Shown piece after piece: positions 1 through 16,626 of a DNA stretch of 34,120 nucleotides; the first letter of the stretch is position 1, and every line of letters starts with the position of its first letter. The translations under genes and the position numbers were made by a program. The DNA is taken from positions 1 to 34,120 of the forward strand of contig JAAFIG010000044.1 of the NCBI GenBank assembly GCA_013298595.1. Direction: 5' to 3'. The notes beneath the pieces were generated by a model. That model had not been told where the DNA came from and made no database searches. It saw nothing but the letters and a program-made list of their open reading frames with translations. This stretch comes from Deinococcales bacterium (GTDB taxonomy: Bacteria; Deinococcota; Deinococci; Deinococcales; JAAFIG01).

Positions 1-1
1 G

Positions 2-106
2 AAAGCTGTTGTGGAGAAGTGGTTACTTGATTTTTCTGGTGATGTTGAACGGGTTAAACGGTTGTGTGGGTGGGATTGGATCAAAGAGAATTTATGTCTT
101 ACTTAA
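2..106 (+). CDS. 3' end of an unknown protein (partial, start outside window)
   Basis: An open frame enters from the left edge and ends at TAA 104-106, giving the last 34 residues, which include WLLDFSGDVERVKRLCGWDW. The composition (charged, Trp-rich, no low complexity) looks like real protein. It converges on the next gene, 17 bp away. I do not recognise the family. The alternative is a chance open frame, since only about 100 bp are visible and it contains no CTCGAG copy. Confidence 0.45.
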   Translation, partial: KAVVEKWLLDFSGDVERVKRLCGWDWIKENLCLT

Positions 107-123
107 ATGCCAATTTGGTATAA

Positions 124-1167
124 CTACCCTATTTGGGTGCTACGTATTTGGTCACGTCCACTTTTCTTTGCCGAAAATAACGCCACATCAACGCGAGCTA
201 AGGTCTGCTCGAGTGTTTCATTGGTTTTACGGCTGGCTAATCCAATACTGACTGTAATCCGAATCCCACCAGGGTTAGCTTCGAGAATCCCTTTGCGTAA
301 ACGTTCAGCTAGTTCTTGGGCTTGCTCGAGACTTGTATTGTTGGCAAGTACAAGGAATTCTTCGCCTCCCCAACGAGCAACATGGTCACCATGCCGAGTT
401 AAATTGCTTAGACAAAATGCGAGTTCACGCAGTACAATATCGCCAAAAGGATGTCCATAATGATCGTTGACACTCTTGAAATGATCCACATCAAGCATGA
501 TTAGTACATAAGGTGTGTTGCTGTTATGGATTTGCTCGAGGTGTTGCTGCATGGCTCGGCGATTTTCGATGTTGGTTAAGGCATCTGTATGGGCTTGGCG
601 TTGTACTACATTGAATTGTTGCTGCATTCTGCCAAAAAAAGTAATCAGGGTTAGGATTGACAGATTTGCAGCATGAAATTGTAGAACTGAATTAAATTGT
701 GCTTGGCTGATACCAGTGCGGAAGTGCCAAAACGAAATAAGCAGCGCAATGGCATTGTAAAATATGCCGAATCTGAGGGCGTTATGTGGTTGTAATCCAA
801 GGTAAGCCAGTATTGTGCCAAGCGAAAACCACGGAATACCCGCACCAAAACGGTCTTCGCTGAGGTCGCGTGGCAACCCTGTGGCGTGTAGATCGAACAG
901 CATATAGGTTGCACCAACCAGCAAAATACAGAGTTGAATGCTATTGACGCTTTCTTGATGGGTGATTAACCAAAGACCTGCCAGCATAAATGTTAGGCAA
1001 ATAATTGGTAAACCATACTGATCGGTGGCTGTGACAGTGGGTAAAGTATGAATCAGTAACCATGAAACAGCCGCTGCTACGGCACCAAGACACAGGATGA
1101 GCAGAGTCCCCCAGAAACGAAATTGACTTACTGAAATGTTAAACCGAAATAATTGCCTCAGAGGCAT
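124..1167 (-). CDS. Membrane-bound diguanylate cyclase (GGDEF domain)
   Basis: Predicted to make the second messenger c-di-GMP from two GTP. Residues 1-180 are largely hydrophobic and look like about six membrane helices; residues 185-340 form a GGDEF domain facing the cytoplasm. The active-site loop reads GGEEF (267-271), an active variant, and the metal-binding motif DVDHFKSVND begins at 226. An intact product-inhibition I-site, RHGD (258-261), sits at the canonical distance before GGEEF. The start is taken at ATG 1167; a GTG lies one codon upstream at 1170. The membrane part is not a sensor I can name. It is the last gene of a minus-strand pair with the stalk-domain gene, 57 bp downstream of that stop. 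The transmembrane region holds the longest CTCGAG-free stretch in the window. Confidence 0.9.
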   Translation of the reverse strand: MPLRQLFRFNISVSQFRFWGTLLILCLGAVAAAVSWLLIHTLPTVTATDQYGLPIICLTFMLAGLWLITHQESVNSIQLCILLVGATYMLFDLHATGLPRDLSEDRFGAGIPWFSLGTILAYLGLQPHNALRFGIFYNAIALLISFWHFRTGISQAQFNSVLQFHAANLSILTLITFFGRMQQQFNVVQRQAHTDALTNIENRRAMQQHLEQIHNSNTPYVLIMLDVDHFKSVNDHYGHPFGDIVLRELAFCLSNLTRHGDHVARWGGEEFLVLANNTSLEQAQELAERLRKGILEANPGGIRITVSIGLASRKTNETLEQTLARVDVALFSAKKSGRDQIRSTQIG

Positions 1168-1224
1168 CACCTACGAAGTTCAGCATAACAAGAATAAGCT
1201 GCAAAGTGTTGTTGCTACACTCGA

Positions 1225-3006
1225 TTATTTGCCACTGACATTGAGTAACCGAGCTTCTGGGCGGTAATAAATAAAATTAATTGGCAAGTACGAACCACTG
1301 GCGGGTACAATTTCAATTTCGATGCGGTCACGGTCGTTACTGCGATAAACCACCACAGGTAAATCGTTACGGTACAAGGTGCCACTATCGGGTAAAGCAG
1401 TGTAAACCCCATTGATTTTCATTGCTCCAGCATACGGACCACCTCGTGGCACCAGAGCACCAACAGTTCCCCTGGCATTCTCGAGCACAATCGAGTAAGT
1501 CACACCAAAGTTGCCTTTGAGGTTCATTTGATCGTTGGTTAAGGCATCGCGTCCAATGACATTTGGGTCGTAATTGCCATCGCCAATGATTTGCCGCACA
1601 GCATTGCCTGTGGTCACTTGTGATAAATCCACACGAATACGGCGCACAGCACCGTAGAACGTGCCTCGTTGATGGATGCCATCGCGGTCTAGTGCCGATA
1701 AACTGCGTAAGGTCGAAAGCATTAACGCCCCAGCTAAATCACCAAGGCTTGGCGTAACCAAGGCTTCCTCGAGATAAAACACAGAAATTTGGATTCGGGC
1801 ACTAGATTCAAGATCAAACATCAGATTTAAACCTTCGCCTGGGTCTAGCGGATTGGAAATATACAAAGGTGCAGCTTTGTTTGGTTCAAGCGAAAGGGTT
1901 TCTAAACCACTCGAGGTTAAGAAATCCAGTAAACTGGCACGCCCCAGTGTTGCCACCACAGTTGTGGCACTGGTCACACCAAAACGCGAAACTTTGACCG
2001 AAACAGGGATTGTCTCGAGGTTTGACACCCAGACCAGTAATCGTCCTGGGGTGTTCATACCATTAGTATGGTACGCCATTAAACGAGCTGGACCATTGAC
2101 GACTTCTTCGTAGAGCAAACCACTTTTTTCGGGTTCTTCGGGTGAATCCGAGAAAATCAGTGGTATGGCATCATCATCGCGGTTAATTTGAGCTTGGGCG
2201 TAACTAAGTACATCCGAATCTGGAAATGTTCGTCCAACAGGAACAAAACGTAAACCATATTCTTTAGCGGTGTACAAAACTTCTTTGGTAACTTTGATAT
2301 TGACCGAAAAAGGTTCAGAAACCAAATTATTTTTATTGGTGACTGTTAAAGAAATGGTTTTTAAACCTGCTACAAAATAGGCTTCTTCACGTCCAGAGAA
2401 ACGCTCAATGGTGATTGGAACACCATTTGGGTCGTAACTGTACTCAATAATGCGAACAGGTTCACCAATTTTGTACTCTTTTTTATCAGTTGCAAAACGC
2501 GCAATTGGCAAGCTGGCATCTGCGCCTCGATCCCTCGAGATGGTAATACTAATAATGCGTTGCACTGCATCGAATACCACCGAAGCATTGAGGGCTTTAT
2601 CTAAAATACGTGCCACCACAAACATATTGCCATCTAAAATAGTTGCTACATCCGATAATGGTACTTGTACGCCACTTAAACGAGCTAAACGCGAACTGGG
2701 GTAAATCTCGAGTTTGCCAAACCGAACACCATCTGGAACATCTTTAATGGCTTCAATTGGCACAGCCAAAATGCGTCCAAGTTCCCGCAATGGCAGCACT
2801 GTCCGACCATCCACAGTTCTGGCACTAGCAGCGAATTGCACTTTGACCCCATTTAAGAAACCAAAATTGGCATCCAAAGGCCAGACCAACTGACGAGTAA
2901 TTAACTTTGTTGTCGGACGCGGGGGTTGCGCGGTCTGAGCCAAAGCAAAAGCACAAAAGAAAAGCGCGAGCGGGATAAAACCTCGCGCGAAGATAGACAA
3001 CTTCAC
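1225..3006 (-). CDS. Secreted protein with copper-amine-oxidase-type stalk domain
   Basis: 593 residues. Residues 1-25 are a signal peptide (hydrophobic core then FALAQ), so the protein is exported. Residues 45-155 resemble the copper amine oxidase N-terminal (stalk) domain, a non-catalytic fold common in secreted proteins of Firmicutes and Deinococcota, with the typical RTVLPLRELGRIL stretch. Residues 175-250 look like a PKD/Ig-like beta domain. The rest (250-593) is beta-rich, without catalytic motifs I recognise. The start is GTG 3006, seven bases after TATCGT on the minus strand (3014-3019), matching the leaderless pattern used elsewhere here. A surface, envelope or cell-wall binding role is inference. 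It is divergent from the helicase gene. Confidence 0.75.
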   Translation of the reverse strand: MKLSIFARGFIPLALFFCAFALAQTAQPPRPTTKLITRQLVWPLDANFGFLNGVKVQFAASARTVDGRTVLPLRELGRILAVPIEAIKDVPDGVRFGKLEIYPSSRLARLSGVQVPLSDVATILDGNMFVVARILDKALNASVVFDAVQRIISITISRDRGADASLPIARFATDKKEYKIGEPVRIIEYSYDPNGVPITIERFSGREEAYFVAGLKTISLTVTNKNNLVSEPFSVNIKVTKEVLYTAKEYGLRFVPVGRTFPDSDVLSYAQAQINRDDDAIPLIFSDSPEEPEKSGLLYEEVVNGPARLMAYHTNGMNTPGRLLVWVSNLETIPVSVKVSRFGVTSATTVVATLGRASLLDFLTSSGLETLSLEPNKAAPLYISNPLDPGEGLNLMFDLESSARIQISVFYLEEALVTPSLGDLAGALMLSTLRSLSALDRDGIHQRGTFYGAVRRIRVDLSQVTTGNAVRQIIGDGNYDPNVIGRDALTNDQMNLKGNFGVTYSIVLENARGTVGALVPRGGPYAGAMKINGVYTALPDSGTLYRNDLPVVVYRSNDRDRIEIEIVPASGSYLPINFIYYRPEARLLNVSGK

Positions 3007-3057
3007 GTAAGATACGATAACAACTTTATTGCTGAAAAAAAAGGGCGAATGCCCAAA

Positions 3058-3086
3058 TTGACATTTACACTGTCAGGCTCGAGAAT
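3058..3086 (+). promoter_or_regulatory. Promoter of the helicase gene, leaderless type
   Basis: A perfect TTGACA (3058-3063), a 17-base spacer and GAGAAT (3081-3086) are followed by only five bases before ATG 3092. This places the transcription start at or next to the start codon. No Shine-Dalgarno sequence is present. A CTCGAG copy (3080-3085) overlaps the -10 box. Confidence 0.75.
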
Positions 3087-3091
3087 ACAGT

Positions 3092-4540
3092 ATGGCAAAG
3101 GTGACACCGCGTTTAACATTTGATCGGGGCACTTTGCTGCTGCACCCACCACCCTCGAGTGGAGCCTGGGCAGGCATTGCCGAATGGGATGACCGCATCG
3201 AACGCTTACGCGCCCCAGCGTGGCAGTACCGCCGCTTACTAGAAGGATTACAGCGCGATAACGTGCCACTCGAGGATAAAGCCAAAGCCTTCGAGAACCT
3301 GCATTTACAACTGGCATTAACCCAAGAACCTTTTGAACACCAAAGCGCAGCCCTCGAGGCATGGATAACAACAGGGCGGCAAGGTGTGATTATTTTGCCA
3401 ACGGGTGCAGGCAAAACCTTTGTTGCCATGCTTGCTATGCAACGAACCCAACGCAGCACCCTGATATGCGTACCAACCCTAGACTTGATGCACCAATGGT
3501 ACGCCAATTTGCAAGCCGCTTTTCCAGATACCGAAATTGGTTTACATGGCGGCGGTTCAAAAGACCTCTCGAGCATCCTGATTAGTACTTACGACAGCGC
3601 TCACCGCTTAATCGAACACAACGGCAACCGTTGGGGCTTACTAATTTTTGACGAAGTGCACCATTTAGCAGGCGATCTTTACAAAACCATTGCCGAGTAC
3701 AGCCTCGCCCCGTACCGCCTCGGCTTAACCGCCACCCTCGAGCGACCCGACGGCAGACACTCGAGTATCCTTGGTTTAGTCGGACAAGTGGTTTACCGCG
3801 CTCGCCCAGAAGATTTAGCAGGCAATGCCTTAGCCCCATACGACTTGGTACGAATCAGCGTGGACTTGTCGGTTGCCGAACGCGAAGAGTACAACGCACA
3901 CCTCGAGACGCGCAGTACATTTTTGAAAAAACGCAACATTCGTTTATCCAGTTTAGAAGGCTGGTCAAGATTTATCCGCGAAAGTGCCAAAAGCCAAGAA
4001 GGCAGACGAGCCATGCTGGCACACCGCGAACTCAAACGCCTCTCCAAAGCCAGCGATGCCAAACTTCGCACTTTAGACGAACTGCTGCAAAGCCATCTCG
4101 AGGAACGCACTTTAATTTTTACCGACGATAACGAAACAGTCTACGACATCTCGAGAAAACTCTTAATCCCAGCTATCACCCACCAAACAGCCGTCAAAGA
4201 ACGTCACAGCATCCTCGAAAATTTCCGCAACGGCACATACCCTGTACTGGTTGCCTCTCGCGTGCTTAACGAAGGCGTGGACGTACCCGAAGCCAGCCTC
4301 GCTATTGTCCTCAGTGGCACAGGTAGTCACCGCGAACATGTGCAACGCCTCGGACGTATCCTCAGAGCCAGACCAAACAAACGCGCCAAATTGATCGAAG
4401 TGATCTCCAAAGACACCCTCGAGGAAGGCACAGCCAAACGTCGCCACGAAAAACTCGAGCCAATAGAAAACAAGCAACCCCGCGAGGGACTCGAGAAAAT
4501 TCAAGAAGCCCTGAGTTTTGATGACTTACTGAACTTATAA
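3092..4540 (+). CDS. SF2 DNA helicase, XPB/ERCC3-like
   Basis: 482 residues with the full SF2 motif set: Walker A LPTGAGKT (102-109), motif II DEVHH (187-191), motif III region TATLERPDG (213-221), motif V VLNEGVDVPE (391-400) and motif VI QRLGRILR (418-425). The layout (short N-terminal domain, then RecA1, an insert and RecA2) matches bacterial and archaeal XPB-like helicases, which translocate on DNA and act in repair or transcription-linked processes. Archaeal XPB often sits beside the nuclease Bax1; no such gene is seen here. The gene stands alone, with its own leaderless promoter and 277 bp of non-coding DNA after it. It carries many CTCGAG copies; 8 of 11 Leu-Glu pairs are CTC-GAG. Confidence 0.88.
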   Translation: MAKVTPRLTFDRGTLLLHPPPSSGAWAGIAEWDDRIERLRAPAWQYRRLLEGLQRDNVPLEDKAKAFENLHLQLALTQEPFEHQSAALEAWITTGRQGVIILPTGAGKTFVAMLAMQRTQRSTLICVPTLDLMHQWYANLQAAFPDTEIGLHGGGSKDLSSILISTYDSAHRLIEHNGNRWGLLIFDEVHHLAGDLYKTIAEYSLAPYRLGLTATLERPDGRHSSILGLVGQVVYRARPEDLAGNALAPYDLVRISVDLSVAEREEYNAHLETRSTFLKKRNIRLSSLEGWSRFIRESAKSQEGRRAMLAHRELKRLSKASDAKLRTLDELLQSHLEERTLIFTDDNETVYDISRKLLIPAITHQTAVKERHSILENFRNGTYPVLVASRVLNEGVDVPEASLAIVLSGTGSHREHVQRLGRILRARPNKRAKLIEVISKDTLEEGTAKRRHEKLEPIENKQPREGLEKIQEALSFDDLLNL

Positions 4541-4817
4541 AAACGGTGACTCGAGATGGCTGGGAATCTCAAAACTGCAAAGCTAACCCATGAGCAAATC
4601 GCAAGTAGCGCGTTTAAACTTTAAAGAACTTGAATGACAAAGGATTTTACACCCGAGCCTCGATCTAAACTTAAAGGCTTGAGAAAACATTCCAATAGCT
4701 TCAAACACGAGTTATGAAAAACTACCCCAGTATCTCGAGGCAATAGAACCCTGTGGATTTTGCCTGCTTAGACGATCTATAAACGGTTTCAACTTGAATT
4801 TTGTATGATGACCCGCG

Positions 4818-6788
4818 ATGAATGAAATTTTAGCCACCAATACGCTCCGCGCCCTCGCTCTTGATGCGATCTGCAAAGCCAAAGAAGGTCACCCCGGCGC
4901 TCCGCTAGGCATGGCAAGCATGGCGTATGTGCTGTGGACAAAAATCATGCGCTACAACCCTAAAAACCCAGCTTGGATTGGCAGAGATCGCTTTGTGCTC
5001 AGCGCAGGGCACGGCAGCATGTTGCAATACGCTGCACTGCACTTAACGGGTTACGATTTACCACTCGAGCAAATCAAAGCCTTTCGACAATGGGGTAGTA
5101 GCACCGCAGGACACCCCGAAGTAGGTCATACTGCAGGTGTCGAAACCACCACAGGACCACTCGGACAAGGTTTTGCCAATGCGGTTGGTATGGCATTGGG
5201 GTTGCATCATTTGGCAGCGCGGTACAACCAACCTGATCTCGAGATTTTTAATAATGTTGTTTACGGCATTTGTTCCGATGGCGATTTACAAGAAGGTATT
5301 TCCCACGAAACTGCCAGCCTTGCAGGGCATTTGGGTTTAGGCAAATTAGTGATGTTGTACGACGATAACAACATTCAACTCGATGGTCCAACCGAATGGG
5401 CATTTTCTGAAGATGTTACCAAACGCTTTGAATCCTATGGTTGGCAAGTGCTCGAGATTACGAATGGCGACACTGATTTTGCAGGTTTAGAAGCGGCTAT
5501 ACTAAACGCCAAAGCCGACCCACGCCCCAGTTTAATTCGTGTTAAAACCACCATTGGGTATGGTTTACCAAAAGCAGGACTTGCTGATGTGCATGGCAAA
5601 GCGCCAAGTACCGACGATGTGATATTTGCCAAAAAACAATATGGTTTTACCAACCTCGAGCCATTTTATATAGACCCAGACGGAGCCAAACCTTGGCAAG
5701 AAGCAGGTGCCAAAGGCGCAGCACTCGAGGCAGCTTGGCAAAATCAATTCCAAGTGTATGCCGATACATTCCCAGTCGAGCACGGTGAAATAGTGAGTAT
5801 TGTAGAAAATTATGCCACACATATTTCGCTCGAGCACATGCCCAAATACGAAACTGGGAAAATGGTTCGTACTCGCAACGCAGGTGGCGACAGCATCAAC
5901 ACCCTCGCTAAACTCGAGCCGCGTTTAATCGGTGGTAGTGCCGATTTAAGCAGCAGCAACATGACCACCATCAAAAGCGAAGCTGCCATGACTCGAGATC
6001 AACTGGCAGCAAAAAACATTAACTTTGGTGTGCGCGAATTCGGTATGGCAGGAATTGCCAACGGCATGGCATTGATTGGTTTACGCCCATTTGTTGCCAC
6101 GTTTTTTACTTTCTCTGATTACATGAAAAATGCTATTCGTATGGCAGCCCTGATGCACCAACCCGTCATATTTGTGTTTACTCACGACAGTATTGGCGTA
6201 GGCACAGACGGACCAACGCATCAACCCATCGAACACTTAGCAGCCTTACGTGCCATCCCAAACCTCAGTGTGATCCGCCCAGCCGATGCCAACGAAACCA
6301 GTGTCGCATGGAAAACAGCTCTCGAGCAACAACACAAACCAACTGCTATTATCCTCAGTCGCCAAGATTTACCAGTCCTCGAGAGTAACGCAAACGCACA
6401 AAAAGGCGGCTACATTGCTAAAGATTGCGAAGGCACACCCGACGTAATTTTAATTGCCACAGGCAGCGAAGTGAGCCTCGCCCTCACAGCCCAAAAAGCC
6501 TTACTCGAGCAAAACAAAAAAGCTCGAGTGGTCAGTTTATTATCATGGGACATTTTCTCGAGCCAAACAACCGAGTACAAAGAAAGTGTTCTACCTAACA
6601 ACATCCGCGCTCGAGTTGCCATCGAAGCAGGCTCGAGCCTAGGCTGGGAACGGTTTGTGGGCTTAGACGGCGGTACGGTGACACTCGACAGGTACGGCGC
6701 AAGTGCGCCAGATGCGGTGGTGTTTGAAAAGCTAGGATTTAATGTGGAGAATGTGGTTAAGGTTGTCCTCGAGACATTGGGGAAGTGA
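4818..6788 (+). CDS. tkt: Transketolase
   Basis: 656 residues, full length for the family. It transfers two-carbon ketol units in the non-oxidative pentose phosphate pathway using thiamine diphosphate and a divalent metal. Visible hallmarks are GHPG (24-27), the thiamine-diphosphate/metal motif SDGD (153-156) with N185, [15 protein letters not shown] in the pyrimidine domain, and the C-terminal [12 protein letters not shown]. The start ATG follows TATGAT (4804-4809) by eight bases with no clear Shine-Dalgarno sequence. The upstream spacer 4541-4817 holds two CTCGAG copies (4550-4555, 4734-4739) and nothing else I can identify. The gene has 16 CTCGAG copies: 11 as Leu-Glu, three as X-Arg-X and two as Ser-Ser. 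Confidence 0.97.
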
Positions 6789-6794
6789 GTTGAT

Positions 6795-7445
6795 GTGTCT
6801 TCACAATTAACTTTAGAAAATAGTCTGGTTCAGAGTATCGCATCATCAGACCTTAAAGATGTCATGCCTGACCTAGTTGAACTTGGAATGGATAGTGTTC
6901 TTAAAGATGGTATTTTTAAAGAAGTGCCAGTTATCAGTACATTACTAGGCTTGTATAGTGCTGGGCGTGGAATCCGTGACTATCTATTTACAAAAAAAGT
7001 GATCAAATTTTTAATGGAACTTGATAGAATACCCTACCTTGAGAGGCTCAAATTTATTGAAGAAATTAATGGAGCTTCTAAACAAACTCAATTAGGAGAA
7101 ACACTTTTATTATTGCTTGAGAGGCTAGATGATTTTGGTAAATCTGAAATTTTGGCACGCTTTTTTTCTTGCCATATTAGAGGCGAAATTGATTTTACTA
7201 TGTTTAGAAAATTATCAACTGCGTTAGAGAAACTTCCGATAGATTATATTACTTCTCTTCATGATTTTTATTCATCTACAGATGTAAAACAAATACATCG
7301 AGATTCTACGTCACTGCTAATTGCTGGACTTGTAGATATTATATTTATACCACTGCCTTTTAGCGATACTCGTGGACAATATTATAAAAATGAATTAGGT
7401 AGAATTTTTTTGGAAAAATATCAAGCTAAACCTACAGAAATGTAA
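6795..7445 (+). CDS. AT-rich conserved unknown, probably imported
   Basis: 216 residues from GTG 6795, the earliest possible start because a stop (the tkt TGA) lies in frame just upstream. No Shine-Dalgarno sequence or TANNNT box is visible, so it may be read through from tkt, 6 bp away. Mostly helical; a central segment GLYSAGRGIRDYLFTKKVIK (about 53-72) is followed by charged helices. I have an impression of similar unannotated proteins in accessory regions of other bacteria but cannot name a family. GC counted over 6841-7440 is 194/600, about 32%, far below the neighbours. It contains no CTCGAG, and none of its five Leu-Glu pairs uses CTC-GAG. Both signs point to recent acquisition. Function unknown. 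Confidence 0.75.
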   Translation: MSSQLTLENSLVQSIASSDLKDVMPDLVELGMDSVLKDGIFKEVPVISTLLGLYSAGRGIRDYLFTKKVIKFLMELDRIPYLERLKFIEEINGASKQTQLGETLLLLLERLDDFGKSEILARFFSCHIRGEIDFTMFRKLSTALEKLPIDYITSLHDFYSSTDVKQIHRDSTSLLIAGLVDIIFIPLPFSDTRGQYYKNELGRIFLEKYQAKPTEM

Positions 7446-7530
7446 AAATTCAGTGGTACTGTGGAGATAACGCTAACATCATCACTTCTATACTCGAGGC
7501 AACTGACCAAAAAAACGTAATTTCTCACGC

Positions 7531-7707
7531 ACTCCCCCTCGCTTCGCTCGACCCCTCATTTGAGGGGTTCAAAAGTCAAAAGCCACCACCAAACCCTCTC
7601 CCCGCGAAACGACCATGCCCGAAGGTGCGTGTATATGGTCAAGAAGCGGTGTTTTGGGAGAGGGTGACGAGCCTAAGCGAGTCGGGAGAGGGGCTTTCTG
7701 ACCATAT
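7531..7707. repeat. GC-rich structured intergenic repeat (REP/MITE-like)
   Basis: Nested inverted repeats fill this spacer. ACCCCTCA-TT-TGAGGGGT (7551-7568) is a perfect hairpin. ACCCTCTCCC (7593-7602) pairs with GGGAGAGGGT (7656-7665), and a related GGGAGAGGGG lies at 7684-7693. ATATGGTCA (7633-7641) pairs with TGACCATAT (7699-7707). CTCGCTTCGCTCG (7538-7550) is an imperfect inverse of 7668-7681. No open frame of note. The local GC is well above that of the gene upstream. The rest of the 7446-7818 spacer holds CTCGAG copies at 7493 and 7731 and the promoter below. Whether copies exist elsewhere in the genome cannot be seen here. Confidence 0.6.
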
Positions 7708-7784
7708 TTTGTCTTGTGCTAGCAAGGTTTCTCGAGCCTGTAGCATTGGCAGTTTGGTGTGTCCTAAGTCCTCGGGTTAAATGG

Positions 7785-7812
7785 TTGACAATTCAAGTAA
7801 ATCCCGTACACT
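7785..7812 (+). promoter_or_regulatory. Promoter of the toxin-antitoxin pair, leaderless type
   Basis: TTGACA (7785-7790), a 16-base spacer and TACACT (7807-7812), then six bases to ATG 7819. The CTCGAG copy at 7811-7816 overlaps the end of the -10 box. No Shine-Dalgarno sequence. Confidence 0.75.
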
Positions 7813-7818
7813 CGAGAT

Positions 7819-8049
7819 ATGGAAATTGCTCTTTCAGAAAATGCTGTTAAACGCATGGAAAAATTGCGTCGTAGCTTGAGAACCTCTCGAGCTGATGTGG
7901 TTGAACAGGCTTTAGTTGATTTGGAGCGTCGCGCTGCAAATTTTAGAGCGATTCTCGAGGATGATGCTGTCAATCATGATCTGAGTGAAGCTGAGGGTGT
8001 GGCGTTGGCGTTGGAAGCTCAACGTGCTGTTAGGGCTAATCGTCGTTGA
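7819..8049 (+). CDS. Ribbon-helix-helix antitoxin (CopG-like)
   Basis: 76 residues. The first 45 have the ribbon-helix-helix pattern: a short beta strand (MEIALSENAV) and two helices rich in Arg/Lys and Glu. The C-terminal half, acidic at first, would be the toxin-binding tail. Such proteins bind their own promoter as dimers and neutralise the partner toxin. Its stop TGA (8047-8049) overlaps the ATG of the PIN gene (8049-8051) by one base, the usual coupling in toxin-antitoxin operons. Family assignment is from pattern only. Confidence 0.75.
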   Translation: MEIALSENAVKRMEKLRRSLRTSRADVVEQALVDLERRAANFRAILEDDAVNHDLSEAEGVALALEAQRAVRANRR

Positions 8050-8489
8050 TGCTTCGCGTGGTTTTGGATACGAATGTTTTCATTAGTGCCATGCTGCATC
8101 CTTTGGGGATTTGTGGACAGATTCTCAGTGCTTGGGAGGATCGTTTATTTGTTGTTTTGTATAACTTTGAATTACTCGAGGAAATAAAACTGGTTTGCGC
8201 TTATTCACGACTTAAAAAACGTTTGAAACGAAAACGAATTGGAGATTTAATCAATCAGTTAAGTCATGATGGTTTATATATTCGAGGGAATCGTAATTCA
8301 ACGTCTTCAAAGGATCCAAAGGATGATTTTCTGATTGCTATAACTGAACTTGGTCAAGCAGATGCTCTTGTCAGTAGTGATAATATTGGTGTTTTGGAAC
8401 TAGAACAAGTTGGAAAAGCTATTTTGTTGACACCTGCTGAGTTCTTAGATTTTTTGCGTAAAAGGCAGTTGCTGCCTTTGGTATCATAG
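8049..8489 (+). CDS. PIN-domain toxin, VapC-like ribonuclease
   Basis: 146 residues. It opens with the PIN signature RVVLDTNVF (first catalytic Asp) and later has the acidic cluster SKDPKDDFLIA and the ALVSSDNIGVL strand with the final Asp. This matches the group annotated as putative toxin, PIN family, metal-dependent RNases that cut specific RNAs when released from the antitoxin. ATG 8049 is chosen because it overlaps the antitoxin stop; a TTG one codon upstream is possible. It carries the usual local codon style and a CTCGAG copy, so the pair has been resident longer than the 6795 gene. Confidence 0.85.
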   Translation: MLRVVLDTNVFISAMLHPLGICGQILSAWEDRLFVVLYNFELLEEIKLVCAYSRLKKRLKRKRIGDLINQLSHDGLYIRGNRNSTSSKDPKDDFLIAITELGQADALVSSDNIGVLELEQVGKAILLTPAEFLDFLRKRQLLPLVS

Positions 8490-8503
8490 ATTTTAAAAAT
8501 ACT

Positions 8504-9025
8504 TTACACTGGTAAAACAATGGCAAATACATAGCTTGGTGTAAACTCTGGTGCGGTATTTTCTTGTCCTGTTGGAATACCTGTGGTGTCTTCGTAGCAT
8601 GAAATTAAACCAAGCCGCTTAGTTTTTGGTAACCAGAATTTCCGCATTTTTGATTGGCGAATGGTAGCTATACTCGAGCAATTTTTGCGAATATCAAATG
8701 CAATTTTTTGATTGGTTGCCATTTGCATTAGGGCTTCAAGGGTGCGAATTTTTTCTGGGCTGAGAGTAATTTTTGGCTCGAGGTCTACGAATAAACCACC
8801 AACGTGTTGGCAGCATGGGTCGAGTTTGATTTGGATACCATTGGCAAGTTTAAATACGGAGTAATATTCGCTTTTTGGTTGTTTAATACATTTGAATGTT
8901 TTGCAAAAAACTGATCGGGTAAAGGCTGTCTCCAAGGTGCTTCGTTTGCCAGTGACGCTGAGAAATGGTGTTGCTAAAGCTGCCCCTGATAACAGTGCGT
9001 AGAGTATCCAGAGGTGATGTTTCAT
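8504..9025 (-). CDS. Secreted Cys-rich protein of unknown function
   Basis: 173 residues with an N-terminal signal peptide (about 1-19, ending LATPF), so probably exported. Six cysteines follow (FCKTFKC, DPCC, KNCSS, ISCYED), which would suit disulfides outside the cytoplasm. No family recognised. ATG 9025 follows TAAAAT (minus strand, 9032-9037) by exactly six bases, matching the leaderless start pattern. It converges on the PIN gene, 14 bp away. Confidence 0.7.
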   Translation of the reverse strand: MKHHLWILYALLSGAALATPFLSVTGKRSTLETAFTRSVFCKTFKCIKQPKSEYYSVFKLANGIQIKLDPCCQHVGGLFVDLEPKITLSPEKIRTLEALMQMATNQKIAFDIRKNCSSIATIRQSKMRKFWLPKTKRLGLISCYEDTTGIPTGQENTAPEFTPSYVFAIVLPV

Positions 9026-9137
9026 GTTTGGATTTTACTGTTTGCAAATGAGTTCTGTACTAGCCTTTCGTAGAAGACAAATATGAATGCTGTGTTTGTG
9101 TGTTGCGCTCGAGGATAATTTTTCGTTAACATCTTTT

Positions 9138-11369
9138 ATGCCAAAACCCTCGAGTTTACTGGGCTTTCCTGTACTGGGAGCGCTGAGTGTTTTGTTAGGT
9201 GTTTTACTCGAGCGGGCGGGCTTGCGTTTTTGGTTTGTTTTTGTAGTGGCAGTGGCAGCTGTGCCGTTATGGTTTTTGCGTGTTCCGCAAGCGGTGCGTA
9301 TTGCTTTGGTGGTGGCATTGTTGTGTTGTCCTTTGGCGTGGTGGCGAAGTCATACCAGCCATAGTGCGGATAATCTCGAGCCTTTTCTGGGAAAAACCGT
9401 GGTTTTAGAGGGTGATTTTGATGGGCGTTTTTTAACGTCGGCTTCGGGTCGGGTGTTGTTGCGCTCGAGAAAAGATTTAGCAATGGGTGCGTATCGAATC
9501 AGTGGTAAGCTCGAGAAACCGCAGTGGTACAGAAATCCTGGGGCGTTTGATGTTGGTGCTTGGTTAGCGGCTCGGGATGTGCGTTATGTGTTGCGGGTCA
9601 AAAGCGCTGAGGCTTTACCAAATAGTTTTTTGAATACTGTGCGGACTTGGGTGCGAACAGGGGTCAGAACTGGTTTGCAACCTCGAGAAGCGGCTTTGAT
9701 GACAGGTATTGCTCTTGGTGATGCCGATGAACTCAACGGTTTAGCTGTTTCTGAATCTGAAAGTTGGCGGGATATTTTTGCCAAAAGCGGTTTGGCGCAC
9801 ATCATGGCATTGTCGGGGCAACAAGTGACCATTTTGATTGTGGCATTATCGTGGTTGTTGCGTGGGTTGCTGCTTTGGCGGTTCCCTGCTCTGATGATGT
9901 TGCTGGTTGCGTATTGGGCTGTGGTGGGTACAGCACCGAGTGTCTCTCGAGCTGTGGTGATGGGTTTAGCGGTACTTTTGGTGGGTTGGCTTGGGCGGGG
10001 TAAACTCGAGGCATTACCTGCATTGGGGTTAAGTGCGATTTTTACATTGTTGTTGCAACCCAGTTGGGTGGCGGATATTGGTTGGATGCTTTCGTATTTA
10101 GCGGTGCTGGGTATGATTTTTTTTGTTCCTCTGTTGCTCGAGCGGTTAGGTTTACAACAACCAGATTCCGATCAACCAATATGGATTCGGGTGCGTTACT
10201 GGGCAACTGCGTTAATCATTGCAACTGTCGCAGCACAAACACTAACCTTACCTTTAACCGCTAGTGGGTTTGGCATGATTCCAGTAGTTTCGCCAATTTC
10301 TAATGTATTTGCCGAGGTGCTGGTCACACCCTTGGTTATTCTTAGTTTTTTTGCAGGTTTACTGGGGCAATTTAGTTTACCAATTAATTTTGTTGTGCAA
10401 TTCGTGGCTTTTGCCTTACTCGAGATTGCGAAATTCTTTGCCCAAGCACCCATTCTCGAGTGGGGAACAATTGGTGTACTGGGTTTTGTGGCGTATTACA
10501 GCAGTATGACAGCCTTGTATTGTTGGCTGTTGCGTTGGATTCGTCCGTATCAGATGTTGGCGGTTTTATTAGCTGCTGTGCTGATTACTGCTTTAGCAAA
10601 ACGTTCTCGAGCAGAAATTATTTACTTTGATGTTGGTCAGGGCGATGCCACCTTAATTCGTTTACCTGTAGGCGATATTTTGATTGATGGTGGTGGTACA
10701 CCACAAACAGATTTTGACATTGGGCGACGTGTGATGATTCCTGCTTTACGCAGTTTAGGTGTTAAAAACCTAACTGTAATTGCCACTCACGCCGATGCCG
10801 ATCATGTTGAAGGTTTAACCCCTGTATTGCAACATTTTGCTATCTCGAGTCTGATTATTGGGCATGATAAAACCACTGGTGAAGATGCTGTTTGGGATGT
10901 GGTCATGGCAGCGGCTCGAGCTAAGAATATTCCTGTTCGGGCAGTGCAAAACGGTATGGATTGGCAGTTAGGCGAAGCAAAAATTCATTTTTTTAACCCT
11001 CAACCCAATCCATTACCCGAAGACAATGCTAATTCGGTGGCGTTCAGTCTCGAGTATCTGGGTAAGCGCTTTTTATTTCTTGGGGATGTGCCAAGTGACA
11101 TCGAGGACACCATGAACCCAGGAGCATTGGATGTACTCAAATTAGCTCATCATGGCTCGAGGTTTTCGACTGGTGAAACGTTAATGCGTCGCACACAACC
11201 CAAAGCAGTGGTTGTTTCCAGTGGGCTTGGCAATACATATGGGCATCCAAGTCAAGTGGTGCTTGAACGAGTCAAACGTTACCGTAGCCAAGTGTTTCGT
11301 ACCGATTTACAAGGTGCAATTATTTATAACTTTAGTACAGGTCAGTTTGTAACCTTGACCGCACCTTGA
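9138..11369 (+). CDS. comEC: ComEC, DNA uptake channel with metallo-beta-lactamase domain
   Basis: 743 residues from ATG 9138. ComEC carries single-stranded DNA across the inner membrane during natural transformation. The N-terminal part has membrane helices and the DUF4131-like soluble segment; the middle is the Competence domain with ALSGQQVTIL; the C-terminal part (about 490-743) is a metallo-beta-lactamase-like domain with DVGQGD (starting at 498) and the metal motif HADADH (551-556), associated with processing of the non-transported strand. ATG 9138 is preferred over the upstream in-frame ATG 9087 because TAACAT (9127-9132) lies five bases before it and the protein then starts at the first hydrophobic segment. 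Its presence suggests the organism may be transformable; comEA is not adjacent. Confidence 0.92.
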   Translation: MPKPSSLLGFPVLGALSVLLGVLLERAGLRFWFVFVVAVAAVPLWFLRVPQAVRIALVVALLCCPLAWWRSHTSHSADNLEPFLGKTVVLEGDFDGRFLTSASGRVLLRSRKDLAMGAYRISGKLEKPQWYRNPGAFDVGAWLAARDVRYVLRVKSAEALPNSFLNTVRTWVRTGVRTGLQPREAALMTGIALGDADELNGLAVSESESWRDIFAKSGLAHIMALSGQQVTILIVALSWLLRGLLLWRFPALMMLLVAYWAVVGTAPSVSRAVVMGLAVLLVGWLGRGKLEALPALGLSAIFTLLLQPSWVADIGWMLSYLAVLGMIFFVPLLLERLGLQQPDSDQPIWIRVRYWATALIIATVAAQTLTLPLTASGFGMIPVVSPISNVFAEVLVTPLVILSFFAGLLGQFSLPINFVVQFVAFALLEIAKFFAQAPILEWGTIGVLGFVAYYSSMTALYCWLLRWIRPYQMLAVLLAAVLITALAKRSRAEIIYFDVGQGDATLIRLPVGDILIDGGGTPQTDFDIGRRVMIPALRSLGVKNLTVIATHADADHVEGLTPVLQHFAISSLIIGHDKTTGEDAVWDVVMAAARAKNIPVRAVQNGMDWQLGEAKIHFFNPQPNPLPEDNANSVAFSLEYLGKRFLFLGDVPSDIEDTMNPGALDVLKLAHHGSRFSTGETLMRRTQPKAVVVSSGLGNTYGHPSQVVLERVKRYRSQVFRTDLQGAIIYNFSTGQFVTLTAP

Positions 11370-11395
11370 AGGTTGACAAGGTGTATTCTGATGCT

Positions 11396-11821
11396 ATGAA
11401 GCCCGTTGTAACTTGTTTAATGTTGCTGGCTGTTTTAGCAGCTTGTGCTCCTGCGGTGTCTAATGACCCGCAGAGTATTTTCCCCATTAAAACAGGTGAA
11501 ACTTGGATTGCTCAGTTTAATAAAAGTGCAGAAACCACTCGAGTGGATTTTACCCTTAGCACTGCCCCTGTCGAAGATACAGATCGTTGGATTTATGCTG
11601 ATTTCAAAACCAGCGAACCCATTGTCACAGGCAATGGTGCCATTCCAGATGATCGTAAATCGTTGATTGTGGTTTTTGCCTTGGATCCAAAAATCACTCA
11701 GCAATTGGTTTGTGTTGTACCACTGAATATAGATTTTAGAGCAGCTACCAAAGGTTCAGGCATGTTGTTTGAAAAAGATCGAAAACTAGCCGAATTTCCG
11801 TGTAGTTTGACACGGAAATAA
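11396..11821 (+). CDS. Small lipoprotein of unknown function
   Basis: 141 residues from ATG 11396. The N-terminus is a lipoprotein signal with lipobox LAAC (Cys17), so the mature protein should be lipid-anchored outside the cytoplasmic membrane. The remaining residues are beta-rich with no motif I recognise. ATG 11396 is chosen over the upstream TTG (11366) because it puts the lipobox at the right distance and TATTCT (11384-11389) lies six bases before it. It ends directly against the convergent chrA stop codon (TAA at 11819-11821, TTA at 11822-11824, no gap). Confidence 0.75.
   Translation: MKPVVTCLMLLAVLAACAPAVSNDPQSIFPIKTGETWIAQFNKSAETTRVDFTLSTAPVEDTDRWIYADFKTSEPIVTGNGAIPDDRKSLIVVFALDPKITQQLVCVVPLNIDFRAATKGSGMLFEKDRKLAEFPCSLTRK
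11795..11818. terminator. Hairpin at convergent gene ends, possible bidirectional terminator
   Basis: A perfect nine-base stem TTTCCGTGT (11795-11803) and ACACGGAAA (11810-11818) with a six-base loop lies inside the last codons of the lipoprotein gene, just before its stop. The stem ends in T or A runs of only three bases, so this is a weak candidate for intrinsic termination in both directions. Confidence 0.4.
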
Positions 11822-12880
11822 TTACACCAAGATCACACCAATAAGTGCACCAAAAGTAATCAACCAAGTCGAATTGATTTGAAATCGCACCAATCCCACG
11901 CTCGAGATAATCAGAATTAGAGCGGTGGGTACATTTTGAATCGCATCTCGAAAAAGTAAAGCAGTTACAGCACACATCAACCCAATTGTAATGGCATTAA
12001 AACTATCAAGTACTCGAGCCGTCCAAGCTAAAGTACGTAATCGTTGTACTAGAGGATTGGTTAGCCAAACCAATACAAAGGCTGGTAAAAAAATGCCCAG
12101 TGTAGCAACGAGTGCTCCTGAAAAACCTGCAATTTGATAACCAACAAAAGTTGCACTCGAGAACACAGGACCTGGTGTTAATTGACCAATGGCAACAGCT
12201 GTGAGTAATTGCGATTCACTCAGCCAACCTCGAGTGAGAAATTCGTTTTTCAGGTAAGCTATTAACACATAGCCGCTACCATATAGGGTTGCACCTATTT
12301 TTAGAAATAATAAAAATAATATACCTGTGCTGATTGGCTCGAGGGTAAGCAATTTTTTATACCATGACCACAGTAAAAATACTGCTGTTAAAACGAGTAA
12401 CAACACTAATTCGTTAATACCACTTAAATAACCAAGAAAAGCCAGTATTGCTAAACCACTGTGGTTTGAGGTTTTCAGGGCAGGGCGCAATAAACCAGAA
12501 ATAGCTTGGATAATGACGGCAATTACCACAGGTTTAATACCCATTAGAATACCTTTGGCAATAGCTGTCGTACCAAATTGTTGGTATAGCACAGCGAACC
12601 CTAGTGTAATACTGGCGGCGGGCACAATAAAAGCTGCACCCCCAAGCCACAGACCACGCCAACCAGCTTGCTTTAAGGCAACGTGCATCACAAGTTCGGT
12701 ACTGTTTGGACCGGGTATCAGTTGGACAATGGCAAGATAATCCAGAAATTCTTGATCACTCAGCCATTTTCGTTTGATTACAACGGCTTGACGAAGCATA
12801 GCAATATGGGCAGCAGGACCACCAAATGCAGTACAACCTAACCAGAACATCAGTCGCAACACCTCGAGTAAAGCAGTCAT
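11822..12880 (-). CDS. chrA: Chromate transporter family protein (ChrA-like)
   Basis: 352 residues of multi-spanning membrane protein built from two homologous CHR domains. The first has FGGPAAHIAML and LIPGPNSTEL; the second has GSGYVLIAYL and the matching AIGQLTPGPVF. ChrA proteins export chromate, possibly by exchange; other members may carry other anions, so substrate is family-level inference. The start ATG 12880 has a Shine-Dalgarno sequence GAGGA five bases upstream, unlike the leaderless neighbours. Two hairpins lie in its upstream region. Confidence 0.88.
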   Translation of the reverse strand: MTALLEVLRLMFWLGCTAFGGPAAHIAMLRQAVVIKRKWLSDQEFLDYLAIVQLIPGPNSTELVMHVALKQAGWRGLWLGGAAFIVPAASITLGFAVLYQQFGTTAIAKGILMGIKPVVIAVIIQAISGLLRPALKTSNHSGLAILAFLGYLSGINELVLLLVLTAVFLLWSWYKKLLTLEPISTGILFLLFLKIGATLYGSGYVLIAYLKNEFLTRGWLSESQLLTAVAIGQLTPGPVFSSATFVGYQIAGFSGALVATLGIFLPAFVLVWLTNPLVQRLRTLAWTARVLDSFNAITIGLMCAVTALLFRDAIQNVPTALILIISSVGLVRFQINSTWLITFGALIGVILV

Positions 12881-12914
12881 ATATTCCTCAAAAAGTGATG
12901 GTACTTGTTGTTAA

Positions 12915-12985
12915 GTATCTGCCATTACAGCGGTAGATACGTTGTCTGGTCGGAAATGTTTTAGCATTTTTTGCTAAAACATTTC
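12915..12985. promoter_or_regulatory. Two hairpins between the HD-GYP and chrA genes
   Basis: Hairpin one: GTATCTGCC (12915-12923) and GGTAGATAC (12932-12940), one mismatched or wobble pair, eight-base loop. Hairpin two: a perfect 14-base stem GAAATGTTTTAGCA (12953-12966) with its complement (12972-12985) and a five-T loop. Both lie downstream of the HD-GYP stop and upstream of chrA on the same strand. They could terminate the first gene, act as a chrA leader element, or be operators. No long U run follows on either strand. Confidence 0.5.
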
Positions 12986-13003
12986 AAGGAGGTTTAGTAA
13001 GTC

Positions 13004-14077
13004 TTAATTTGTTGGAAATAAACTACCTTGTTGTAATTCTCGAGTGGCTTTTTGTTGCTTTAACACAGCCTCGAGTTTAGCCACCATTTCGGGGTCGTAT
13101 TGTGTACCAGCACCAGCTTTCAGGCGAGCTAAGGCATCAGTGTTGTTTAACTCGTCGCCTCGATCTGAGGTCAGCATATCAAAAGCATTTGCTACTGCCA
13201 CAATCTTTGATAAAATTGGAATCGAAGTGCCCAGTAAACCTTTAGGACCACCTGTGCCATCAAAGCGCTCATGGGTATGCAGAATTGCTAAACGCGAAGA
13301 TTCTAATTCCGAAACACGCTCGAGTAAGTTATAACCAAGGCTGGCAATGGTCACATCATCAGCATCGGCATCCGAAAGCCGTCCGAGATCGTGCAGCATC
13401 GAAGCAAACCACAAATCGTTTTGTTCAAGCGAAGTTAAACCCAACTCTCGAGCGATTGCCATTGCATAACTGGTGACTCGTACAGCATGACCTAATTGAT
13501 TAAATTCTTGGGCTTCGATGGCTTCAACAAAGGTTAGGGTTAAATTCCAAGCCAAGGAGCGCTGCTTGGACATGTCCATAAAACCGCCAAGTACAGCTGT
13601 AACAATGCCGCTCCAACGGGTTAAATTTTCGAGTGCCGAAGAAGCAAAAGTATCAGGTCCGAAATTATCTAACATCATTGCGCCACGAACACCAACGCTG
13701 CGGTCTCGAAAAGGAATAATTAAACTTTGTTTGTACTCACGTAAACCCATACTCGAAAGTTTGGCTCGAGCTTCAGGTAAGTTTGGGTTAAAAAAATCGC
13801 CATTGGCATTACTCGAGATCCGTGGTGTGCCATCGTTCCAAGGTCCAACCAATTCTACCCCTAAGAATTCATTACCGTAGCCTTTGACCGCTGCGATTTT
13901 ATCGGTACCTTCAGAACGAATTACTGCCCAGCAACGGGTTGCTGCTGGTGCAATGGTCATGGCGCTGGTCATGGCGCTTTCAAGCAAACCACGCAAAGTT
14001 CGGGCAGTTAATAATTCTTGAGCGGCTCTTACATAATCAAAGCTTTCTGCGATATCAGGGGTTTTTCGTCGAAACAT
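13004..14077 (-). CDS. GAF-like plus degenerate HD-GYP domain protein
   Basis: 357 residues. Residues 15-165 look like a GAF-type sensor domain; residues 185-345 form an HD-GYP-type domain, the family that degrades c-di-GMP. H197 and the MLHDLGR motif (HD at 229-230) are present, as is HERFDGTGGP (269-278). However, the GYP triad reads GGP, and the late metal-binding Asp of the usual VADAFD is Asn (VANAFD, N297). The protein may therefore be a c-di-GMP receptor or an altered enzyme. Start ATG 14077 lies eight bases after TATACT. It is a natural counterpart to the diguanylate cyclase at the left end, but they are not linked in an operon. Confidence 0.8.
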   Translation of the reverse strand: MFRRKTPDIAESFDYVRAAQELLTARTLRGLLESAMTSAMTIAPAATRCWAVIRSEGTDKIAAVKGYGNEFLGVELVGPWNDGTPRISSNANGDFFNPNLPEARAKLSSMGLREYKQSLIIPFRDRSVGVRGAMMLDNFGPDTFASSALENLTRWSGIVTAVLGGFMDMSKQRSLAWNLTLTFVEAIEAQEFNQLGHAVRVTSYAMAIARELGLTSLEQNDLWFASMLHDLGRLSDADADDVTIASLGYNLLERVSELESSRLAILHTHERFDGTGGPKGLLGTSIPILSKIVAVANAFDMLTSDRGDELNNTDALARLKAGAGTQYDPEMVAKLEAVLKQQKATRELQQGSLFPTN

Positions 14078-14130
14078 AATAAGTAAGTATACAGCGATAA
14101 AGCGATGAGCTATGTAACTTTGCTTAGATC

Positions 14131-14144
14131 AGTTGTGCACAACT
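14131..14144. promoter_or_regulatory. Perfect 14-bp palindrome upstream of the HD-GYP gene
   Basis: AGTTGTGCACAACT is perfectly palindromic and sits 54 bp upstream of the HD-GYP start codon, a typical place for a dimeric regulator site. No regulator gene is nearby. Confidence 0.4.
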
Positions 14145-14161
14145 TTAAGTAAATAGCTTTC

Positions 14162-14377
14162 ATACGGAATTAACTTAATCACTCTCGTTTGACCATCTTG
14201 ACCCTGAAAGCAGCACCTAACGGGCTTGGGTCGCAAAAAGCGGTCAAACTGTCATTCTTGCTCACAAGACAGCACCTTACGGGCTGTTCGCGCTTCAAAC
14301 GTTAATTCCGTGTCGTTGTTACTCCTTTTAGTCGGTTAATCAGTCAAAATACACGACTGATTAACACAATTCCGTAT
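14162..14377. repeat. 216-bp structured element with inverted ends (MITE-like)
   Basis: The ends are imperfect inverted repeats of about 23 bases: ATACGGAATT, three variable bases, TTAATCA, one variable base, TC (19 of 23 match). Inside are two 16-base direct repeats CAGCACCTAACGGGCT (14211-14226) and its one-mismatch copy (14270-14285), an internal copy of the end motif at 14301-14311, an 11-base stem hairpin (14335-14345 with 14355-14365), and GTTTGACC/GGTCAAAC (14187-14194, 14242-14249). No target-site duplication is evident. The right end overlaps the acetyltransferase stop codon. No CTCGAG inside. It could be a small mobile element or a structured RNA. The rest of this gene-free stretch (14078-14161) holds the HD-GYP promoter and the palindrome. 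Confidence 0.55.
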
Positions 14378-14829
14378 CACATAATCTCGAGATGATAGCG
14401 TTTACCAAGTTCAGCAAAACCAAATCCTTCCAAAGCACCTTTATCAACAGTGCTTTCTGGTGTTAAAACCAAATCCACGCTGGCACAACCCATCCCTTGG
14501 CATGCACCTAGGGCTTGCTCGAGTAATGCACTGGAAACACTGCTTTCACGCACACTAGGGCGCACAACAATACGATCTATTAAGCCATTTGGGGTTTGAT
14601 CAAAAACACCCCAACGCACCCACAGAGAAGCAAAACCAAGAATCGCACCATTGGGCGCTTCGGCAACCAACAGTGTAGCCCCTGGGGTTTGTAATAAACG
14701 CAGCATATTGGTATTTAAAGCAGCAATCACACCTTCCTCGAGTTGAGGTTGGCGTAGTAATTCAGCTAAGATTGGGGCTAAACCACTTGCATCTGATGGA
14801 GCGCCAACGCGTACAGAAAATTCTCGCAT
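14377..14829 (-). CDS. GNAT family N-acetyltransferase
   Basis: 150 residues. The order of elements suits the GNAT fold: a short N-terminal strand and helices, LLVAEAPNGAILGFASLWV (beta 2-3), IDRIVVRPSVRESSVSSALL (acetyl-CoA-binding motif A region, although the classical Q/RxxGxG/A loop is degenerate) and a C-terminal GFGFAELGKRYHLE. Such enzymes move acetyl from acetyl-CoA to amines; the substrate cannot be told. ATG 14829 follows TAGACT by six bases. It is divergent from crcB with only 35 bases between the two start codons. Confidence 0.75.
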   Translation of the reverse strand: MREFSVRVGAPSDASGLAPILAELLRQPQLEEGVIAALNTNMLRLLQTPGATLLVAEAPNGAILGFASLWVRWGVFDQTPNGLIDRIVVRPSVRESSVSSALLEQALGACQGMGCASVDLVLTPESTVDKGALEGFGFAELGKRYHLEIM

Positions 14830-14835
14830 AAAATC

Positions 14836-14858
14836 AGTCTACTTAATCTGGGTAAACT
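14836..14858. promoter_or_regulatory. Compact divergent leaderless promoter pair
   Basis: On the minus strand TAGACT (14836-14841) lies six bases before ATG 14829; on the plus strand TAAACT (14853-14858) lies six bases before ATG 14865. Both -10 boxes fit in the 35-base gap, so the -35 regions must extend into the opposite gene or its start. No clear TTGACA is seen for either. Confidence 0.6.
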
Positions 14859-14864
14859 AAATGA

Positions 14865-15236
14865 ATGCACTTGGTTTACATTGCTATTTTTGGCGCACTC
14901 GGTAGTTTAGCTCGGTACGGCGTGGGAATCTGGGCAAAAACGGCTTTTGGTGTGGTATTTCCGTGGGGCACGTTATTGGTCAATATCCTTGGCAGTTTTA
15001 TTCTGGCATTTATCACCACACTCGCCCTCGAGAACCGTGTTTCTGAGCAAGTGCGCTTAGCCATTGCCATTGGTTTTTGTGGTGCTTTCACCACATTTTC
15101 AACTTTTGAACTCGAAATTTTGAACACAATACTCGAGGGACGCAGCTGGGTGGCTGTGCTGTACATTCTCTCGAGTATTGTCTTAGGGTTTATTGCAGTG
15201 CTTGTTGGGCGTGGTTTGGCATTACTGATTATTTAG
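14865..15236 (+). CDS. crcB: Fluoride ion channel CrcB/FluC
   Basis: 123 residues, normal length, four membrane helices. Visible family signatures are GALGSLARYGVG near the N-terminus, FPWGTLLVNILGSFILAF and GFCGAFTTFSTFELE (the TTFSTF fluoride track motif). The protein works as a dual-topology dimer that lets toxic fluoride out. ATG 14865 is chosen over the out-of-frame ATG 14861. The short upstream gap leaves no room for a fluoride riboswitch. Its last eight bases overlap the convergent signal peptidase gene. Confidence 0.93.
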   Translation: MHLVYIAIFGALGSLARYGVGIWAKTAFGVVFPWGTLLVNILGSFILAFITTLALENRVSEQVRLAIAIGFCGAFTTFSTFELEILNTILEGRSWVAVLYILSSIVLGFIAVLVGRGLALLII

Positions 15237-16131
15237 GTTGTGGTTGATTGCTGTTCAAAGCTTCGTAAGCAGCAGGGCGCGGTAAGCTACGCAAATTCAA
15301 AACCAATTGCTGTGTTTTTTCATCACGGCGTACCAAAGGCCACCAAACAAAAGTGGCACGCCCCGCTAATTCCTCGAGTGTGACAGGTCCAAAGGCACGT
15401 CCATCTTCTGAACCGCCTGGGCTGCGATTATCGCCCATAACAAGGTACTGACTGTTTTTCAAGGTAAATGGTGTAATTTTATAAAGCGGGTTGGGTTTAC
15501 CATCGGCACAAGGGCTTTCTGGGCGCAATTTGTTTTTTTCAGCGGCTTTATTAAAATTCCAGAAATCAGAATTCGATAAGTAACTGCAATCATCAAAACT
15601 TTGTTTTTCTTTCCAGTATTTGACGGTATGTGTCTCGTTTATTTTTGTACCATTCACTGTCACAATGCCACGCTCCATCGAGACTGTATCGCCACCTACT
15701 GCCACAATGCGTTTAATATAAAATGGTTTATAGGTTAAGTTTTGAAAAACATTGCCCAGCAAAGGAATAGGTTGGACTCGTCCAGCGTCTTTTGGTGGTT
15801 TTAAAACCACTAAATCGCCACGTTTAAAACTCATGATGCCCATACGAGCAAGCCACATTTCGTACTTAGGCACAAACACGCGTTCACCATCGTTGATGTT
15901 TGGTAAATCACTCGAGCCGCTAATAGCCACTGTGGTAAAAACAAAAGTGGTAATAACCACAGCAATAACGACTGCTTCGCCAATCGGTCGCACCCATTCA
16001 CGCCAAATGTAATCGCCAAAATTACGAAAAGTTTTTTTACTTTTGCCTTTGGGTTGTGGCGATGGTTCAACGGTAGATTCTACGACGGCTGTCTCGAGGG
16101 TATTTTGTTGCTTATTTGGGTCAGGGTTCAT
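15229..16131 (-). CDS. lepB: Signal peptidase I
   Basis: 300 residues. It cleaves signal peptides on the outer face of the membrane by a Ser-Lys dyad. After a charged N-terminus (Lys-rich at 28-33), one membrane helix (about 50-71) leads to GSSDLP, where S74 is the expected nucleophile; K140 in YIKRIVAVGGD is the general base; MGDNR marks box E. The nucleophile is followed by Asp, not the usual Met. ATG 16131 is preferred over the upstream ATG 16155 because GGAG lies five bases before it. A promoter can be read on the minus strand: TTGCCT (16179-16184), an 18-base spacer, TACTTT (16155-16160). It serves the many exported proteins seen in this window. Confidence 0.9.
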   Translation of the reverse strand: MNPDPNKQQNTLETAVVESTVEPSPQPKGKSKKTFRNFGDYIWREWVRPIGEAVVIAVVITTFVFTTVAISGSSDLPNINDGERVFVPKYEMWLARMGIMSFKRGDLVVLKPPKDAGRVQPIPLLGNVFQNLTYKPFYIKRIVAVGGDTVSMERGIVTVNGTKINETHTVKYWKEKQSFDDCSYLSNSDFWNFNKAAEKNKLRPESPCADGKPNPLYKITPFTLKNSQYLVMGDNRSPGGSEDGRAFGPVTLEELAGRATFVWWPLVRRDEKTQQLVLNLRSLPRPAAYEALNSNQPQPK

Positions 16132-16149
16132 AAAAACTCCAATTTCAAT

Positions 16150-16180: not shown

Positions 16181-16240
16181 GCAAAAACTTGCTTGACCTA
16201 GAACTCGAGCCTAAAGTGGCGAGTTAACAATGGTTGTAAT

Positions 16241-16570: not shown

Positions 16571-16626
16571 ACGCAGAGTATACCTGCGTTTTTCTGAGAA
16601 AATTGTCCACAAGGTAAAATGTGGTC

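Follow-up and report, generated by a model that had tools for sequence, protein, structure and literature searches.

CTCGAG as a probable HIP-like highly iterated palindrome of a Deinococcales lineage, with effects on Leu-Glu codon pairs

The window, i.e. the whole stretch of 34,120 nt which was analysed, contains genes for a transketolase (tkt), an XPB-like helicase, a ComEC-like competence protein and a GH31 glycosidase (Table 1). It belongs to the genome designated G000; all genomes compared are incomplete MAGs. On the minus strand of the window, a protein with an AbiEii-type toxin domain and a frame with an RNA-ligase domain are found at 29629-31049, overlapping at 30345-30729.

Table 1. 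Genes and CTCGAG sites considered in the window
Feature	Position	Strand	Details
Whole window	1..34120		CTCGAG 208, GAGCTC 0; part of a uniformly motif-bearing genome (G000:C39)
XPB-like helicase, 482 aa	3092..4540	+	Pfam PF18458, PF04851, PF00271
tkt, transketolase, 656 aa	4818..6788	+	Pfam PF00456/PF02779/PF22613; 16 CTCGAG sites
In-phase CTC-GAG sites of tkt, n=11	first 5064..5069; further starts 5238, 5451, 5655, 5724, 5829, 5913, 6321, 6378, 6504, 6768		frame from 4818
tkt CTCGAG, phase xCT-CGA-Gxx, giving codon CGA (Arg)	5992..5997; also 6523, 6610		frame from 4818
tkt CTCGAG, phase xxC-TCG-AGx, giving Ser-Ser	6557..6562; also 6632		positions and translation
ComEC-like competence protein, 760 aa	9087..11369	+	Pfam PF03772, PF00753; CTCGAG in 9/11 Leu-Glu pairs
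GH31 glycosidase, 794 aa	25783..28167	+	Pfam PF01055; CTCGAG in 13/17 Leu-Glu pairs

The Leu-Glu pairs of tkt are encoded by CTC-GAG in 11 of 12 cases and by TTA-GAA in the remaining one. With p = 0.06 taken from the genome codon frequencies, the probability of finding at least 11 of the 12 pairs as CTC-GAG by chance is 4e-13. For the helicase, the corresponding fraction is 8 of 11. Both fractions had been given in the original prediction and were obtained again on recount, and the codons CGA and TCG-AG (Ser-Ser), which according to it are brought in by the hexamer in the other phases, were located at three and two sites of tkt, respectively.

Within the 4.58 Mb of G000, CTCGAG occurs 27,159 times (1 per 169 b) and GAGCTC, which has the letters of CTCGAG reversed, 15 times. 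For the window, 2.7 copies are predicted from trinucleotides, compared to the 208 observed. When the sites are masked before a trinucleotide model is fitted, the ratio of observed to expected copies (O/E) is 72 in 474 kb, and the excess over the base-composition prediction is about 60 to 70-fold. No 4-kb stretch in 1.33 Mb has a density below 1.25/kb. The pressure is genome-, genus- and family-wide, and nothing about it is peculiar to tkt. Other 6-base palindromes are mostly avoided, as determined in a G000 sample of 434 kb (L055-L074 and the window). Eight 6-mers have zero copies there (AGGCCT, CCGCGG, CGGCCG, CTTAAG, GACGTC, GAGCTC, GGGCCC and TTCGAA), GGCC was observed 14 times with about 1,100 copies expected, and CCGG reaches 0.10 of expectation. 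CTCGAG is the great exception to this general avoidance. Its palindromic 8-mer extensions are below expectation and the flanking bases give no longer consensus. Six stretches were searched for Rfam matches and contained none. Viral contigs with clustered CTCGAG were rejected as candidates; the densest are G+C-rich and do not have the palindrome profile of G000.

The density of CTCGAG is 5.9/kb in coding DNA and 5.5/kb in DNA without any ORF of 60 codons (referred to as ORF-free DNA), where O/E is 59. Of the coding sites in 1.33 Mb, 3684 (56%) are in phase 0, which is read as CTC-GAG, 1617 are in the CGA phase and 1290 in the TCG-AG phase. The original prediction stated that the pressure shapes codon-pair use, and this is borne out on the larger scale: CTCGAG encodes 3684 of the 5511 Leu-Glu pairs in 1.33 Mb (67%), whereas about 6% are expected from codon use, and 1252 of the 1818 pairs in 434 kb, whereas 107 are expected. 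An independent abundance of CTC and GAG, which had been named as the finding that would speak against the prediction, was not observed, since outside the pair CTC makes up 9.5% of the Leu codons and GAG 18% of the Glu codons (434 kb). The choice depends on the neighbouring residue (1.33 Mb). CTC has a share of 73% among Leu codons ahead of Glu, 16% ahead of Asp and 3-8% ahead of Ala, Gly or Val, and GAG has a share of 75% among Glu codons following Leu and 12-28% following the other tabulated residues. Because the density is equal in ORF-free DNA, all three phases are used and GAGCTC is nearly absent, the pressure acts on DNA and not on codons. The codon-pair rule at Leu-Glu is best explained as a by-product of CTCGAG iteration.

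The pressure had been described as acting on DNA, not protein. This agrees with the evidence above, with the amendment that the pressure does extend to the proteins, in which the Leu-Glu dipeptide is more than doubled. Its O/E is 2.37 in G000 (rank 2 of 400) compared to 0.97 for Glu-Leu. Tripeptides fitting the CGA phase, [SPTA]R[VADEG], have a ratio of 1.39, and the reversed order has 0.86. For Leu-Glu, the sister genomes give 2.23 (G001), 2.47 (G002) and 2.38 (G003), i.e. 2.2-2.6 overall, genomes with a middling motif density 1.83 (G008) and 1.62 (G059), and genomes without the motif 0.95-1.14. The pressure is not purely synonymous, and amino-acid replacements toward Leu-Glu are driven by it. 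New Leu-Glu pairs would have been created by CTCGAG sites, and an alignment to the motif-free G004, which has Leu-Glu at only 7 of 28 Leu-Glu sites of G000, agrees with this, albeit with small numbers.

The four family genomes (G000, G001, G002 and G003) contain 5,900-6,500 CTCGAG per Mb and the neighbouring genus g11 contains 6,200-7,700 per Mb. G008 has 3,600 per Mb and the remaining phylum is lower than the family and g11; in the g7 genomes (about 2.2 Mb), CTCGAG is little or not in excess over GAGCTC. Among these Deinococcales MAGs, hyperabundance is common to all genomes of the family and to one genus next to it, and in other parts of the phylum the excess is weaker and graded. Genomes from separate assembly projects agree, which makes an artefact of assembly improbable. 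Sites also persist: conserved Leu-Glu pairs are still CTCGAG in 62 of 76 cases within the same genus and in 40 of 46 cases in another genus, whereas other conserved codon pairs kept their identity with fractions of 0.35 and 0.23, respectively, in an ortholog set which is small (10,244 codons against G001).

CTCGAG exceeds each of its one-letter neighbours by 3.6 to 5.0 log-odds. The transition neighbours at positions 1, 2 and 3 are found at 2.02, 2.04 and 1.93 times the expected number, and words one transition off are about twofold enriched in genes and in ORF-free DNA alike. An efficient directed correction of near-miss words is disfavoured, because this class is enriched and not emptied. 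Under a strict mutation-selection balance in which mutation is reversible, one-off words should not be in excess; hence, this balance may not be complete, or the sites may be hypermutable. Sites less than 40 bases apart are too few overall, a shortage which is absent for pairs of other hexamers. Intergenic sites show no clear repulsion, although gaps of 25-40 b are slightly low (41 versus 57 expected). Short-range repulsion as a local function was rejected, as intergenic sites give no clear sign of it outside this bin, and the shortage of close sites was ascribed to protein constraint for the same reason. CTCGAG sites appear to act about independently of one another.

G000 and its sister genomes encode many methyltransferases. 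Among the loci of PF02384, PF00145, PF01555, PF07669 and PF02086 in these incomplete MAGs, no methyltransferase orthologue common to all four family genomes was found. The m5C methyltransferase L115 is present in G000, G001 and G012; G002 and G003 gave no close match. Two kinds of enzyme adjoin XhoI-type nucleases in the phylum, an XhoI-linked one in Oceanithermus-type genomes and a PaeR7I-like one in G009, and to these only weak similarity was detected in the family among the loci compared, D12-type loci being left out. A cognate methyltransferase may come from a protein family outside those sampled or may have been lost in MAG gaps. At L178:6312-8736, a 307-aa protein of no known family adjoins an Eco57I-type adenine methyltransferase; the two resemble a restriction-modification pair found in G000 alone.

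The XhoI/PaeR7I nuclease (PF04555) is absent from the family genomes and present in 4 of 111 genomes of the phylum. Three genomes of genus g10 carry an apparently intact XhoI gene beside a PF01555-type (N6/N4) methyltransferase (L388, L389 and L390) and have few CTCGAG (1390-1947 compared to 3640-4718 in their sisters). In G009 (L391 and L392), the XhoI-type gene is broken by stops, whereas the PaeR7I-like methyltransferase frame next to it is intact; CTCGAG occurs 6704 times in the 3.3 Mb of G009. Vsr (PF03852) was found neither in the four family genomes nor in G012, and the single match among 12 genomes is in G008.

We consider CTCGAG to be a HIP-like highly iterated palindrome of this Deinococcales lineage, under a weak fixation advantage per site with log-odds of about 4 (probability of roughly 0.68). 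Irrespective of its location, in genes in any phase as well as in ORF-free DNA, each CTCGAG is favoured as DNA. Its apparent advantage over each one-letter neighbour, about 3.6-5 log-odds, is enough to set the codon choice at Leu-Glu and to drive replacements toward this pair. This advantage may consist in weak selection per site or in a conversion bias with a scaled coefficient of about 4, mediated by a putative protein which reads the double-stranded palindrome. In case of selection, a scaled coefficient near 4 should suffice, which in a large population means a weak effect on each individual. Within the family the trait is probably old, and over the phylum as a whole it is graded.

Elhai's proposal for HIP1, a methylation-coupled mismatch-repair ratchet, assumes that a CTCGAG methyltransferase marks the site-bearing strand from which repair copies the site, so that gains are kept and losses undone. 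Each cyanobacterial HIP is accompanied by a methyltransferase for that HIP (PMC4390886), and the many methyltransferases of G000 and its sisters would also fit. However, no orthologue occurs in all four family genomes among the loci from five families, no close XhoI-linked or PaeR7I-like relative was seen in the loci compared (D12-type loci left out), and there is no depletion of one-off words, whose deviation is the same at every position, unlike the outer-position bias of HIP1. We regard such a ratchet as unlikely here. A DNA uptake signal, by which competent cells would import kin DNA with CTCGAG and recombination would spread the sites, is distinctly improbable. The window does encode a predicted ComEC-like uptake protein, and the uptake sequences of Neisseria and Haemophilus are likewise short signals repeated through the genome of competent bacteria, which spread irrespective of reading frame. 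Those sequences are longer, non-palindromic and occur about once per kb, whereas CTCGAG is a short palindrome without extended consensus, and with 1 site per 169 b its density greatly exceeds what one site on each imported fragment would require.

Directed mutation or a Vsr-like short-patch repair, turning near-miss words into CTCGAG, could work in any reading frame as well as outside genes. No vsr gene was found in the family genomes or in G012, and the depletion of neighbours which characterizes such repair was not observed, the three transition neighbours being about twofold enriched. We hold this explanation to be very unlikely. Protection against an own restriction enzyme could be connected with the avoidance of most other palindromes in G000, but restriction yields avoidance and not excess, the nuclease gene of an XhoI restriction-modification system is missing from the family and the XhoI-bearing g10 genomes have fewer sites, which leaves it hardly credible. 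A codon-pair or translational preference for CTC-GAG would account for the majority of coding sites being in phase 0. It is refuted by the equal density in ORF-free DNA, the enrichment of the other phases and the low usage of CTC and GAG elsewhere, and almost certainly does not apply.

The highly iterated palindrome under a weak advantage, which we prefer, was compared to known systems. The nearest of these are the HIP1 palindrome (GCGATCGC) and the alternate HIPs described in cyanobacteria (Elhai 2015, PMC4390886). They are likewise single palindromes far over expectation genome-wide, and they are lineage-wide, yet some related genomes do not have the motif. The O/E values are of the same order (about 60-70 for CTCGAG and 55-228 for HIP1, PMC4390886), with null models that differ. 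CTCGAG also resembles the cyanobacterial class in being distributed alike over coding and non-coding DNA (5.9/kb and 5.5/kb). It differs from HIP1 in its host, a member of the Deinococcales and not a cyanobacterium, in being a 6-mer without palindromic 8-mer extension, and in its density (5.9/kb compared to 0.3-2.7/kb, PMC4390886). One-off deviations are even over positions 1-3 for CTCGAG and biased to the outer positions for HIP1. Furthermore, a strong effect on dipeptide content was shown here for CTCGAG, and no common or close cognate methyltransferase was found among the loci compared in the incomplete MAGs. In Nocardia, a different phylum, orphan methylation of the same hexamer clusters at dnaA (PMC4752239); there, a local cluster at the origin and a methyltransferase are found, in contrast to the genome-wide saturation in the Deinococcales. 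With respect to restriction-site avoidance, CTCGAG goes the opposite way to the many other palindromes which are almost fully avoided in G000.

A literature search on highly iterated or hyperabundant palindromes and CTCGAG returned the cyanobacterial HIP papers and no account of the motif in Deinococcota. Tentatively, and with considerable doubt, CTCGAG may represent a highly iterated palindrome that does not depend on methylation and is, in the literature searched, the first from outside cyanobacteria, with a family-wide DNA-reading system which would impose the word on every kilobase and thereby rewrite amino-acid pairs proteome-wide. With regard to the purpose of HIPs, an independent second lineage whose word differs, whose density is higher and in which a common methyltransferase is not evident would allow the methylation model to be tested in nature. 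The DNA-level pressure found here is also strong enough to change protein composition, and analyses of codon pairs, dipeptides and protein evolution in the clade would be distorted by it.
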